DNA of 27,325 bases from a virus. The position numbers and the translations under genes were made by a program. The notes under the pieces were generated by a model that was not told the DNA's origin, did no database searches, and saw only the letters and a list, made by a program, of their open reading frames with translations. Shown here in pieces: positions 4 to 9,153 of this stretch. The stretch covers positions 1 through 27,325 of the IMG/VR virus record IMGVR_UViG_3300032323_003280; one strand, 5' to 3'. How positions within the stretch are numbered: position 1 is the stretch's first letter; every line of letters starts with the position of its first letter.

Positions 4-273
4 TTATAACTTCTCTTGTAGTTTGTCCAATTTTGAAGTCATATTTTTTCTACACGCAGTATCACAATATCCTACCAATAGTTCGTTGGTATGTTCCAAA
101 ACAAAGGATATAAACCAATCTTTCTCTTCTTCATTTTGATTGTTTAGATAGTTCCTCGCTCTGTCAATGTCTTCTTTTGTGTATGTTATAATTTGATTGC
201 TGATAACATTGATCTCACCTACTGATTCATATTTTATTTTTGGTGATGCTGGTTTTTGTTTGCAGTTACACAT
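4..273 (-). CDS. Hypothetical small Cys-containing protein (89 aa)
   Basis: The family is not recognised. The protein opens with a Cys pair (C2, C4) and has two more cysteines near residues 70-74 (GYCDTAC), so a small metal site is possible but unproven. The middle is rich in charged helical sequence (EDIDRARNYLNNQNEEE). Its ATG at 273 overlaps the last codons of the sigma-like gene by 8 nt, which implies translational coupling and a shared transcript. It is the last complete gene before the window edge; the stop lies at 4-6. Confidence 0.65.
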   Translation of the reverse strand: MCNCKQKPASPKIKYESVGEINVISNQIITYTKEDIDRARNYLNNQNEEEKDWFISFVLEHTNELLVGYCDTACRKNMTSKLDKLQEKL

Positions 274-781
274 GTCTTTTTTTATTTAATTCTTTTCTAA
301 CTTTATTGATATCTCTTGATACGCTATTAATTGGGATGGTAGTTTTCTCTGATGTGGCTGTGATGCTACACCCCAATTCAATATAGAGTTCAAAGAGCCT
401 ACCATAATACCAATCAGATGTTTTTTTCATTTCATCCAAATGTTTATTAACCCATTCCAAATTTACTTCAGGTTCTTCGTATTGTAAATCAGGAAAGTCA
501 TAATCATATATTTCACTGGCTTTAAACCTGTGGTATTGATAATAATACTTTGATGTCTTTGAGTGGAATTGATTTCTAACTAACCTTGAGAAGAAATATA
601 ATCTTTGATTATCTGGTATGTCAGCAAACTTTTTGTTGATTAGTATTTGTTCTATGCATATTTGGAATAGATCGTCAATGTCTTCCAATCTTGAAATACT
701 TTTACATATCTTTTTTAGTTCATCAATATTTTCTGTTATCCAAATATTAATCAAGATCGTTTCTATTATGGTTTTATCCAT
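266..781 (-). CDS. Divergent sigma-70-like RNA polymerase sigma factor (171 aa)
   Basis: This is probably a phage sigma factor that redirects host RNA polymerase. Residues about 30-86 resemble sigma region 2: an acidic helix (EDIDDLFQICIEQIL), then a basic-aromatic stretch (FSRLVRNQFHSKTSKYYYQYHR). Residues about 124-165 resemble a region 4 helix-turn-helix (LFELYIELGCSITATSEKT, then NSVSRDINKVRKEL). At 171 aa it is close to a minimal two-domain ECF-type factor. I start it at the ATG at 781, not the TTG one codon upstream. It overlaps the winged-helix gene by 8 nt and the next gene by 8 nt, so all three are probably co-transcribed from the promoter at 1052-1082. The sigma call rests on motif shape only; another HTH regulator is possible. 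Confidence 0.6.
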   Translation of the reverse strand: MDKTIIETILINIWITENIDELKKICKSISRLEDIDDLFQICIEQILINKKFADIPDNQRLYFFSRLVRNQFHSKTSKYYYQYHRFKASEIYDYDFPDLQYEEPEVNLEWVNKHLDEMKKTSDWYYGRLFELYIELGCSITATSEKTTIPINSVSRDINKVRKELNKKRHV

Positions 782-3554: not shown

Positions 3555-3773
3555 TTAATTGGATTTGAACATTTGATATTCGTAATAGCGAGCTAAATCA
3601 TATACATCTTTACTGAAATAAGTTCCAATACCATAGATGTTATAATCACGATAAGCTCTGACATTTTTCTCAAACGAAGAAACTATTTTCTTGTATAACG
3701 ATGGTGATTCGTTTTTCATAGATTTAAGTTCCTGTAATTGTTCTTGACTAAGGGGTGTAATTAACCAATCCAT
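3555..3773 (-). CDS. Hypothetical protein (72 aa)
   Basis: Not recognised. The N-terminus MDWLITPLSQEQLQELKSM is followed by a basic helical stretch (SLYKKIVSSFEKNVRAYRD) and a Tyr-rich C-terminus (GIGTYFSKDVYDLARYYEYQ). No clear domain. Its ATG at 3773 is preceded by copy 2 of the 30-bp repeat, which also encodes the last codons of the upstream gene. Confidence 0.6.
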   Translation of the reverse strand: MDWLITPLSQEQLQELKSMKNESPSLYKKIVSSFEKNVRAYRDYNIYGIGTYFSKDVYDLARYYEYQMFKSN

Positions 3774-3945: not shown

Positions 3946-4170
3946 TTACTTTGTATTACGATTTGACTTAATATATGCATCCAATTTATTGAATCTCTCC
4001 TGAACATCCTTAGAAGGTCCGTTAATTGCGAAATCTACCATAACATCTGTTGCCAGTGCTATCTCAAATAATGTTGGACATATTCCACAGTCCTGAAACC
4101 ACTTCTGAACCAGATGTGATTGGTTTTGGAAGATAATTGTTTCCTCTTTAGATCGTTGTTTGTTGCTCAT
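3946..4170 (-). CDS. Hypothetical protein (74 aa)
   Basis: Not recognised. The sequence looks helical with two close cysteines (FQDCGICPTLFEIALATDVMVDF). I start it at the ATG at 4170, which has the usual A-rich leader (ATAAAAACAAACATT). A frame extending to a TTG at 4338 reads back through a terminator hairpin and a probable small RNA and is not credible. It is the first of the small-gene run that ends at 3088. Confidence 0.65.
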   Translation of the reverse strand: MSNKQRSKEETIIFQNQSHLVQKWFQDCGICPTLFEIALATDVMVDFAINGPSKDVQERFNKLDAYIKSNRNTK

Positions 4171-4230
4171 AATGTTTGTTTTTATATTACAAAGATAGGG
4201 GTATAGGAGGGTATAGTCAAATAAATTGCA

Positions 4231-4261
4231 TAAAAAAACAGGAACTTTTTTAGGATTCCTG
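4231..4261 (-). terminator. Rho-independent terminator
   Basis: On the minus strand, CAGGAA (4261-4256) pairs with TTCCTG (4244-4239) across an 11-nt loop and is followed by seven Ts (4238-4232). It is a standard intrinsic terminator. It stands about 80 nt downstream of the predicted start of transcription from the promoter at 4349-4379, before any ORF begins, so it would give a short transcript. Confidence 0.75.
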
Positions 4262-4343
4262 CTTTTTAAACATATTATTGAGAACATTAGAGATTGATCG
4301 TTAATAAACAACAGATGGATAAACAATAAATCAACCAATCTCT
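4232..4343 (-). ncRNA. Putative small structured RNA, about 110 nt
   Basis: A promoter (4349-4379) and a terminator (4231-4261) bracket a stretch with no credible ORF. The predicted transcript begins at or near the 5' arm of a 12-bp helix: AGAGATTGGTTG (4343-4332) pairs with CGATCAATCTCT (4300-4289), including two G-U pairs. The roughly 31-nt loop between the arms is U-rich and open. A short linker and the terminator hairpin follow. This layout matches a stand-alone bacterial or phage sRNA. I recognise no known RNA family. An attenuated leader of the small-gene operon, with read-through into 4170, is the alternative. Confidence 0.5.
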
Positions 4344-4348
4344 ACTCA

Positions 4349-4379
4349 TAAATATACTGATATATCTTGGTAGTATCAA
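4349..4379 (-). promoter_or_regulatory. Promoter, TTG-N20-TATATTTA
   Basis: On the minus strand, TTG at 4379-4377, a 20-nt spacer, and TATATTTA at 4356-4349 (next base T). It is the third exact instance of this arrangement in the first 4.4 kb. It sits right after the stop of the 273-aa gene and would start the sRNA-like unit at about 4343. Confidence 0.6.
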
Positions 4380-4386
4380 TATTTCT

Positions 4387-5208
4387 TTAGAGATACGATT
4401 GTATTTTTTCTATGTGACCATCCATATATGAAACATCATGGTCCATATTCAACGCCTTATCAATCTCCTCCATTATATCATAAAAATCATCAACCAAAAT
4501 AACTGCTTGGTTTAATTGATCTTGTGTGGCTTTACCATCTTCTATAACCTTTGCTTCAATCTGAAAAACATTATCAGCAACTTGAGCTGCAGATCTAATC
4601 ATACCACTTGTTTCATCATCAGGTTTCATTGAAATCAAATGTTCAAAGGTAGATTGTGCTCCAGGACAAATGTAAAAGAACTTGGTCTTATATCCCAATA
4701 CATCCATTTCACCGAACGCAACTGGTTCAATAATTAAATTATCCCCACTCATTACGATCGGAACATTTGGTGATACACTTTTTGTTGCACATCTGGCATA
4801 GGCTGTTCTATAATCAACACCACCCTTTGCTCTTTCATAAGCAATACACTCACCAAGTGCTGAATCTTCAGGAACATCAGCGAAGTCCTCAAGCTTAGCC
4901 CAATACTTGTAATATGAATTGAATGAGTTTAAACAAAAGTTACCTCTCTCAATTCTATTAGGCATCTGTGACTTCATTCTTGAATTAGATAAACAACGAC
5001 TTAAATAAAGACCTCTATTCTCGTTTTTCTTGGGCTTTAAAACAAATACCTCATTATCCTTGAACTCATCTTTTGACATTGAATTATCCCACTTAGATTT
5101 GCAAACAGCATATCTCTGTGCTTCATCAGGGAAAGAATCTTTCTCTTCACTCATACATCTCCCTATAAATGTGTTTTCATCTTCCGATGCTAATGGTTTT
5201 ACTGGCAT
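4387..5208 (-). CDS. Protein with three Cys-pair modules (273 aa)
   Basis: No enzyme family is recognised. The N-terminal half holds three similar modules, each with two cysteines 18-20 residues apart: C18/C36 (FIGRC...YAVC), C72/C92 (YLSRC...NFC) and C121/C140 (LGEC...YARC). The same kind of module is present in the protease fusion (C247/C267). The C-terminal 130 residues contain no cysteine after C181 and end in helical sequence (DDFYDIMEEIDKAL). It starts right after the small membrane protein and closes the portal-connector block, so a virion or head-assembly role is likely by context. Paired cysteines could bind metal or form disulfides; the sequence does not decide. Confidence 0.6.
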   Translation of the reverse strand: MPVKPLASEDENTFIGRCMSEEKDSFPDEAQRYAVCKSKWDNSMSKDEFKDNEVFVLKPKKNENRGLYLSRCLSNSRMKSQMPNRIERGNFCLNSFNSYYKYWAKLEDFADVPEDSALGECIAYERAKGGVDYRTAYARCATKSVSPNVPIVMSGDNLIIEPVAFGEMDVLGYKTKFFYICPGAQSTFEHLISMKPDDETSGMIRSAAQVADNVFQIEAKVIEDGKATQDQLNQAVILVDDFYDIMEEIDKALNMDHDVSYMDGHIEKIQSYL

Positions 5209-7539: not shown

Positions 7540-9153
7540 TTATACATTTCGTCCCAAACTTGTTTGATATGTTTGGATAATATTATAAAGTGTTGATTGT
7601 TCTGTTGCTCCAAGACCAGTTCCTATTGTTGCAAAAGAGAATATGTTGTCATAATATTGGATTATACTACCATTATTATTTAACGCTCCTATTACAACAG
7701 AGTTTGTTGTTGTTCCTGTTGATGCTCCACTATTGGTTTGAACAATACTTCCATTTCTATACAAGTTTTGGAATGTTGTTGCTGTTGTTGTGATTAGATT
7801 ATATCCTCTTGGTTGTGGTGCAACACTCGCAGAGATACCATCTGTTTCAGTTCCATAATAATATAATGGTGATCCTTCTTGACCAACACCGAAGAATGCT
7901 CCTCCAGCACCTGCCACTCCAATATAGTTCTTACCTGTGCCAGTATAAACAGTGGTGTTCAACATATACACAGACGAGTGGTTATTAATTGGTGATACAC
8001 TTGTTCCTGATAAGAAAGTATCAGCGTAAGCGTTAGATCCATTTGATGTAGCTCCTGATACACCATGTGTCCAACCACCAACAAATGATAATCTAAATGC
8101 GGCATTGGTATCTAATGGATTCTTGGCATTAAATTTGTGTGATCCTGCAACCCCACCTAAGAATGGATACATCGCAGTAATCTTGGTATACAAACTATTA
8201 CTCTTCAATGATGTGAATAAAGTATTTGTTGCTCCTGATTGAGTTGAATTAACAGATCCCCCTGCAGTTACAACAGCATTCAAGTAAGCAATTGCATCAG
8301 CATCAGTAACGATTGGTGTAGAAGAAGGTGTTGGTGAGAATGTAGGTGTGTTCGTCATTGTTGGTGTTATAGCAGGTGTTCCTGTTTGTGTAGGTGTATT
8401 TGTCTGTGTGGTTGTAACACTCGGAGTTGGAGTGCTTGTATTAGTTGTAGTAACACTTGGAGTTGGAGTGCTCGTATTGGTTGCTGTTACACTTGGGGTT
8501 GGAGTATTCGTAGGAGTGCTTGTATTGGTAGGTGTGATTGTATTAGTTGGAGTAACACTTGGTGTATTAGTTTGTGTGTTAGTTGGAGTGGCAGTAGGAG
8601 TGATTGTATTAGTAGGAGTGTTCGTCATTGTTGGCGTTACACTTGGAGTTGGTGTTGTCGTAGGTGTTGTTGTAGGTGTCTCAAAAGGTGTTTGAGTTTG
8701 TGTTGCTGTAACACTCGGAGTTGGGCTTGGAGGATTTAATTCATCAGGTGCGAATAGATAGTTTGAGTTATCTTCATTTGATGAAATAAATTCAACATAA
8801 TAATCATTTGTTGTTTCAGCAGAAGTGGCAATAACAAGAGCCAAACCATTCTCCACAACATTATAAGCTAATGCAGGATTGGTATTGGTTGGTATCTGAG
8901 CTATTTGTTCACTTACAGTATACAGGTATTGTCCTTCATATGGAAATGCAATCTCACCAACACCTTGTCCCTCTGTAAATACAAACTCATCATATCTGTT
9001 TTGATGTGATGATGTATTAGGGAGAACAAAAGAAACTTTGTCTTTTGTAAAAATGTGAGTGAAACTAAATAACCATTGTGGATTTGATAATTCAGCATTT
9101 TGAGATACTGTTACCACCAATGTATTAAGCTGATTTGTTTTGATTATTAGCAT
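7540..9153 (-). CDS. Virion appendage protein: N-domain, Pro/Thr linker, shared C-terminal module (537 aa)
   Basis: Three parts are visible. Residues 1-140 form a beta-rich N-terminal domain (LVVTVSQNAELSNPQWLFSF, EGQYLYTVSEQ) that probably docks on the virion. Residues 142-280 are a Pro/Thr/Ser linker built from units such as TNTSTPTPSVTT. Residues 281-537 are a Gly/Tyr-rich module starting DADAIAYLNAVV and ending SLGRNV. This last module is homologous to the C-terminus of the 1253-aa tail protein and looks like a concanavalin/LamG-type sandwich, so glycan or host-surface binding is a reasonable inference. The position beside MCP and tail tube genes suggests a capsid decoration or neck/tail fibre; the sequence does not say which. 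Confidence 0.7.
   Translation of the reverse strand: MLIIKTNQLNTLVVTVSQNAELSNPQWLFSFTHIFTKDKVSFVLPNTSSHQNRYDEFVFTEGQGVGEIAFPYEGQYLYTVSEQIAQIPTNTNPALAYNVVENGLALVIATSAETTNDYYVEFISSNEDNSNYLFAPDELNPPSPTPSVTATQTQTPFETPTTTPTTTPTPSVTPTMTNTPTNTITPTATPTNTQTNTPSVTPTNTITPTNTSTPTNTPTPSVTATNTSTPTPSVTTTNTSTPTPSVTTTQTNTPTQTGTPAITPTMTNTPTFSPTPSSTPIVTDADAIAYLNAVVTAGGSVNSTQSGATNTLFTSLKSNSLYTKITAMYPFLGGVAGSHKFNAKNPLDTNAAFRLSFVGGWTHGVSGATSNGSNAYADTFLSGTSVSPINNHSSVYMLNTTVYTGTGKNYIGVAGAGGAFFGVGQEGSPLYYYGTETDGISASVAPQPRGYNLITTTATTFQNLYRNGSIVQTNSGASTGTTTNSVVIGALNNNGSIIQYYDNIFSFATIGTGLGATEQSTLYNIIQTYQTSLGRNV
8330..8730 (-). repeat. Degenerate tandem repeat encoding Pro/Thr linker
   Basis: This part of the 537-aa gene is a run of degenerate units encoding TPT, TNT, PSVT and similar. 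Within it an approximately 36-nt unit (12 residues, TNTSTPTPSVTT) is repeated near 8405-8515. The linker is low-complexity but strictly in frame. Related linkers are present in three other virion genes. Confidence 0.85.

Follow-up and report, generated by a model that had tools for sequence, protein, structure and literature searches.

The window, i.e. the whole analysed stretch of 27,325 nucleotides, is a 27 kb viral record that encodes, among others, a portal, an XkdF-like protease and a tape measure protein. A short RNA unit is located on its minus strand. In larger relatives, the gene order runs from the structural genes through the portal and a few small genes ending in a 273-aa type to the RNA and on to small variable genes. 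Gene content and this gene order agree with a preliminary description of the DNA, which had put the structural genes on one side of the unit and the small-gene region on the other. The features concerned are the following:

4387..5208, minus strand: 273-aa gene, function unassigned, ending just upstream of the RNA; conserved neighbour, used as bait for relatives
4349..4379, minus strand: promoter-like TTG-N20-TATATTTA, spacer containing the family-specific element CTACCAAGATA
4332..4344, minus strand: 5' arm of the closing helix (from fold and covariation)
4301..4331, minus strand: open 31-nt loop AUUUAUUGUUUAUCCAUCUGUUGUUUAUUAA, proposed pairing site (from fold and pairing tests)
4288..4300, minus strand: 3' arm of the closing helix (from fold and covariation)
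4232..4267, minus strand: intrinsic terminator hairpin and T7 tail (from sequence and fold)
4192..4220, minus strand: separate promoter-like TTGACT-17-TATCTT serving the downstream gene (from promoter scan and relatives)
3946..4170, minus strand: downstream small gene, 74 aa, MSNKQRSKEETIIFQNQS; candidate neighbour target, with a weak match in the window
266..781, minus strand: 171-aa gene with a weak sigma-factor-like PHROG match; among gene starts, it gives the window loop its best antisense match

On the minus strand, TTG (4379-4377), a 20-nt spacer and TATATTTA (4356-4349) are followed by TGAG. This strand of the window has three instances of TTG-N18..22-TATATTTA, at 4379, 2096 and 1082. 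The combination TACCAAGATA..TATATTTA is kept in relatives, and the TTACCAAGATACTAT promoter element was found once per phage and at the RNA only. A generic scan for E. coli-type (sigma-70) promoters in the region was not above chance, with 21 found and 22.1 expected, and the case for a promoter therefore rests on conservation. Flavobacterial sigma-A promoters have their start site 4-5 nt past the -7 box (PMC6847099); transcription is thus predicted to start at approx. 4344, where the 5' arm begins. Both the TTG-N20-TATATTTA promoter, which is promoter-like and conserved in relatives at 4379-4349, and the position of the 5' arm at the predicted transcript start had been proposed in the preliminary description and were recovered here. 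A nearly identical element, TACCAAGATATTATATTTA, directly precedes a gene MANGITYGINFPF... in contigs of other phages (L220, L230, L231 and L232) and may represent a wider phage promoter type.

The closing helix comprises 13 bp (4344-4332 / 4300-4288), so that it is present as had been described, with one pair more than the 12 bp reported. It encloses the 31-nt loop (4331-4301), which is unpaired in the predicted fold, and a spacer separates its 3' arm from the terminator hairpin. The latter reads CAGGAA(TCCTAAAAAAG)TTCCTG with A/T pairs lengthening the stem and T7 at 4238-4232. Like the open loop, the strong intrinsic terminator had been recognised before, and it corresponds to this hairpin with its seven T (4267-4232). 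An automatic terminator scan did not list it, as its loop exceeds the 8-nt maximum of that scan. A hairpin of this kind is present in most relatives, where its loop is often of the CTAAAAAA type. The whole RNA folds with -30.0 kcal/mol compared to -16.7 ± 3.0 kcal/mol for dinucleotide shuffles (z = -4.4; 0 of 200 as good).

The unit had also been described as lacking an ORF. Homologues of the downstream gene begin at the ATG at 4170 and therefore no separate protein is indicated within the RNA, although an open frame (listed ORF 3946-4338) does cross it, the frame of the next gene staying open upstream. This 74-aa gene (3946..4170) gave no match in Pfam or PHROG. Relatives carry comparable promoters at the same place as the separate downstream one, and the downstream ATG is mostly found 54-63 nt past the terminator. 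The leader CCTCACAATTAAAACAACAACA precedes the start codon of the window genes at 3773 and 3306 and is also present in L125; it is a repeated 5' leader of several small genes in these phages.

The search with the 273-aa gene yielded 55 relatives, and further units were added by pattern scans and portal scans. Downstream of this gene, most of the 55 contain TTACCAAGATACTAT, the TATATTTA box, a helix of differing sequence, an open loop and a separate terminator. Among the matches listed, related IMG/VR phages contributed approx. 40 distinct copies, located nearly always after a 273-aa-type gene; in L002 and L036 an extra gene lies between the structural gene and the unit, with promoter and RNA still together. 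A covariance model with a seed that did not contain the window copy retrieved this copy at E = 4e-5. Rfam gave no match at the gathering threshold in the window and nothing relevant at E up to 1 for the window piece L001 and six relatives. Length and sequence of the loop vary a lot among relatives. All that remains in the close relative L008:5823-5926 (contig G004), as judged by reading, is a short hairpin whose loop contains CUCCCA. In L125, a relative by its portal at 79%, the RNA found at this position (~7600-7760) has the same kind of terminator and another architecture, consisting of an outer helix AUGGAUA/UAUCCAU and an inner hairpin UCAGGUUUGACCUGA without the TACCAAG element. Another relative contains two group I introns above the Rfam gathering score (L053:155-441 and L053:1002-1275).

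Selection on the helix was studied in 39 distinct units. MAFFT alignments of the whole unit misplaced the 3' arm, and covariation was therefore taken from a model-based alignment. In this alignment, which was fitted to the structure and leans towards it, the covariation score was 0.634 compared to 0.236 ± 0.020 for shuffled and 0.16-0.19 for slid controls, with 129 double-change cells against a shuffled expectation of 48.8. Changes on both sides occurred at 13 of 13 helix pairs. Because of the fitting to structure, an alignment-free arm-swap test was added. The 5' parts reached on average -20.7 kcal/mol with their own 3' parts and -12.9 kcal/mol with those of other clades (15 clades; 0 of 2000 permutations as good). 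Clear exceptions were L008 and L027, and the G-rich arms of L031, L040, L069 and L048 found an equal partner in 10-14% of the swaps. Between groups the arms differ completely and still keep their pairing, which argues for a real, selected, stand-alone noncoding RNA family. The preliminary description had named covariation in relatives as a check, and the helix proved to be conserved with strong compensatory changes in its arms. The proposal of a dedicated noncoding RNA is likewise supported by the covarying helix, the once-per-phage promoter element, the RNA's own terminator and the separate downstream promoter. At the level of sequence comparison the unit, its conservation and its covarying helix are established, and it is highly probable that the RNA itself is real.

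The only matches of the portal among named phages were the Nonlabens phages P12024S and P12024L with 24% identity, which infect a marine flavobacterium, and for this reason the phages carrying the RNA are probably flavobacterial. A DNA-level search among cultured phages gave no match, and a portal-protein search of a bacterial genome collection found no genome with a relative. On the 35.5 kb contig G006 (L086, L087), the first gene families recur at the contig end; its map is therefore probably circular and shorter than the contig.

The loops consist of a short core flanked by U-rich sequence, and this core is UCCCAU in most units and UCCAUC in the window. UCCCAU is antisense to AUGGGA, the start of a 50-60-aa MGQ-type gene which follows the RNA in most relatives. 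An unanchored search for the best gene in each phage had no overall significance, with only the window (2/60 shuffles) and G034 (4/60) standing out, and a target list per phage was therefore dropped for tests across phages. Compared to shuffled loops, two of approx. 33 gene families stood out, namely, the MGQ type and MGCNC. Tests of own versus swapped partners are stricter than those with shuffled loops. On the downstream start region they gave p 0.005 for duplex energy (11 clades) and p 0.0015 for a CAU-anchored ungapped score (18 clades); the mean duplex gain over the downstream start regions of other phages was 2.2 kcal/mol (16 clades, permutation p < 0.001), the 16- and 18-clade sets including units added after the pattern was first spotted by eye. 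Near-duplicates were excluded from these two sets and no unit was excluded for its score. In the anchored test with 12 clades, the downstream neighbour ranked first against 22 gene families (p 0.02 versus at least 0.11). The MGCNC family was rejected as a target; it had a combined z of -3.45 against shuffled loops, but p values of 0.30 and 0.24 in the own-versus-swapped tests. By unanchored duplex energy, the wHTH gene 774-1037 (p near 0) and the 273-aa gene (p 0.01) scored too. The wHTH gene reached p 0.16 when anchored, and part of its pairing may fall in promoter DNA.

As controls, shuffled leaders gave nothing and the same-sense leader gave p 0.20. With leader or loop mirrored, a gain of -1.0 to -1.2 was retained at p about 0.02, roughly half of the own gain, so that part of the signal is explained by low-complexity A/U runs. 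On top of this composition effect a specific pairing component is likely to be real, and co-evolution of the loop with the downstream start region is supported statistically by the comparisons between clades. In the best cases, the loop is exactly antisense through the start codon. L178 has a loop UUCCCAUUUCUA that is the exact antisense of UAGAAAUGGGAA, and the loop CCAUUUUAUCU of L046 matches AGAUAAAAUGG, the candidate target being the first sense gene downstream; L144 and L036 are also among the best single cases. A compensating pair of leader and loop is given by L061 (leader AAAGAUAA, loop UUAUCUUU) and L208 (leader AAAGACAA, loop UUGUCUUU). Pairing with the neighbour is poor in a number of clades; most of clade K belongs here, as do L139 and the window. 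The leader of the neighbour is changed in the close relative L122 with an unchanged loop, and L169 kept its loop despite a changed leader.

In the window, the neighbour is not of the MGQ type and its pairing with the loop is no better than shuffled (304/1000 loops). A better match was found at the start of gene 266-781, where GAUGGAUAAA is exactly antisense to UUUAUCCAUC of the loop and 11 further pairs add up to 21 bp with -21.7 to -23.3 kcal/mol. It was equalled by shuffled loops in 7/1000 cases at that gene and in 20/1000 at any of 35 starts, the match being the best among many genes and phages examined; as approx. 20 phages were searched likewise, it remains a lead. GAUGGAUAAA is kept in relatives at 95-97% and UUUAUCCAUC in relatives of the RNA. 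In the lineage of the window the neighbouring gene has changed, and the start of gene 266-781 is the likelier target. The small gene 774-1037 has a weak LexA-type winged-helix match and is followed by 266-781 with its weak sigma-factor match; going by these matches, both are possible regulators. The earlier suggestion of the loop as an antisense site is thus supported by the pairing tests for the family as a whole, while the target of the window's own copy is uncertain.

The best explanation, and one we favour with moderate confidence, is an antisense translational repressor resembling the C4 RNA of P1 in its working, with a transcription unit of its own. The noncoding RNA of ~113 nt would have a promoter and a terminator to itself. 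The closing helix at the very 5' end would keep the U-rich, C-containing loop open for pairing with a phage mRNA at its start codon and A-rich leader, and in most relatives this mRNA would be that of the small gene directly downstream. Such pairing would block ribosome entry, and translation would be held back. Genes of flavobacteria have no Shine-Dalgarno sites, and their translation is promoted by adenines ahead of the start codon (PMC6847099). An RNA covering the AUG and an A-rich leader would be expected to block initiation. Expression of the RNA, repression rather than activation by the pairing and the timing in infection are what we infer. A broader reading, in which a dedicated fast-evolving RNA of a whole group of probably flavobacterial phages reads start codon and A-rich leader directly, as an antisense design suited to hosts without Shine-Dalgarno sites, and is re-aimed when the adjacent gene changes, in the window lineage at a sigma-like regulator, is put forward tentatively and seems doubtful as a whole.

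An RNA that acts in trans on host mRNAs or small RNAs, with the match to the phage neighbour as a by-product of shared A/U-rich composition, is unlikely. It would agree with a unit that stands alone, with the lesser variation of the unpaired loop core (UCCCAU in most) compared to the helix and with the part of the pairing signal surviving the mirror controls, and known prophage RNAs do act on host RNAs (PMC12197685, a review). Own pairing nevertheless exceeds swapped and mirror pairing, and the neighbour position comes first against the gene families in the anchored test. Somewhat less probable still is an RNA whose helix presents the U-rich loop to a phage or host protein, as decoy, structural or packaging RNA. 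Covariation maintaining the helix while the loop keeps a short core, and a location where the block of head and portal genes ends, would suit such a role; the variable loop, the short hairpin in L008 and the rebuilt L125 are unlike an essential structural RNA, and no relevant Rfam match appeared even at E up to 1.

We consider it very improbable that the element is a strong terminator or processing element closing the structural operon, with a transcript that has no separate function. It does come right behind the final gene of the structural block, and a terminator is part of it. However, relatives conserve a promoter-like element of its own that occurs at no other site, the closing helix lies at a distance from the terminator with covariation independent of it, and promoter and RNA stay together in L002 and L036 despite the gene in between. 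The family is absent from Rfam, has strong covariation support and occurs in phages without a close named relative; by its helix alone it is well qualified as a candidate entry among RNA families. If the loop targets start codons, it would be a natural example of small-RNA silencing where the mRNAs of an entire phylum have no Shine-Dalgarno sites, and it would offer ~40 natural loop/leader pairs (among the matches listed) for probing pairing rules.

Among known systems, the phi29-type packaging RNA is a small phage RNA near head and packaging genes. The location is alike and the fold is different, and its Rfam covariance model gave no match in the window nor in L001 and six relatives. The OOP RNA of lambda is a short phage RNA that pairs with phage mRNA; OOP and Sar are transcribed from the opposite strand of their targets with perfect complementarity. 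P22 Sar, too, is a short phage RNA pairing with phage mRNA (PMC12197685). The window RNA differs from both in being neither opposite-strand nor perfectly complementary. Unconventional type I antitoxin RNAs (OrzO, IstR-1 and OhsC) lie adjacent to a small gene and have limited pairing of 18-21 nt to its mRNA, and for OrzO 15 nt of continuous or 17 nt of interrupted pairing are enough (PMC3919570). A small RNA adjoining a small gene, with limited pairing that is putative in the present case, is common to both; the orientation here is the same strand instead of divergent. Pairing with the neighbour mRNA is significant over the clades, part of the signal staying in mirror controls. By reading, the downstream MGQ-type proteins of ~50-60 aa are D/E-rich and show no hydrophobic stretch as in type I toxins.

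C4 RNA is encoded upstream of its target on the same strand, and Rfam includes a C4 antisense RNA family. The C4 covariance model matched neither the window at the gathering threshold nor L001 and six relatives at E up to 1. In phages P1 and P7, C4 bears complementary sequences in its loops, and their pairing around the ribosome-binding site prevents translation of a phage mRNA (PMC12197685). The units share the layout of a small phage RNA on the same strand and upstream of the candidate target; the loop complementarity is good in many clades and weak in the window. They differ from C4 in having one long helix with one open loop, a different small target gene and leaders without Shine-Dalgarno sites. 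C4 is cut from the transcript of its target, whereas here, judged by sequence, the two are separated by a terminator and another promoter-like site; the RNA would have its own promoter and terminator, and the candidate target gene a different promoter. Going by these tests, the RNA belongs neither to the C4 family nor to the type I antitoxins; with its compensatory helix changes, own promoter-like element and own terminator it has the features of a stand-alone phage noncoding RNA, to which C4 is closest in working.
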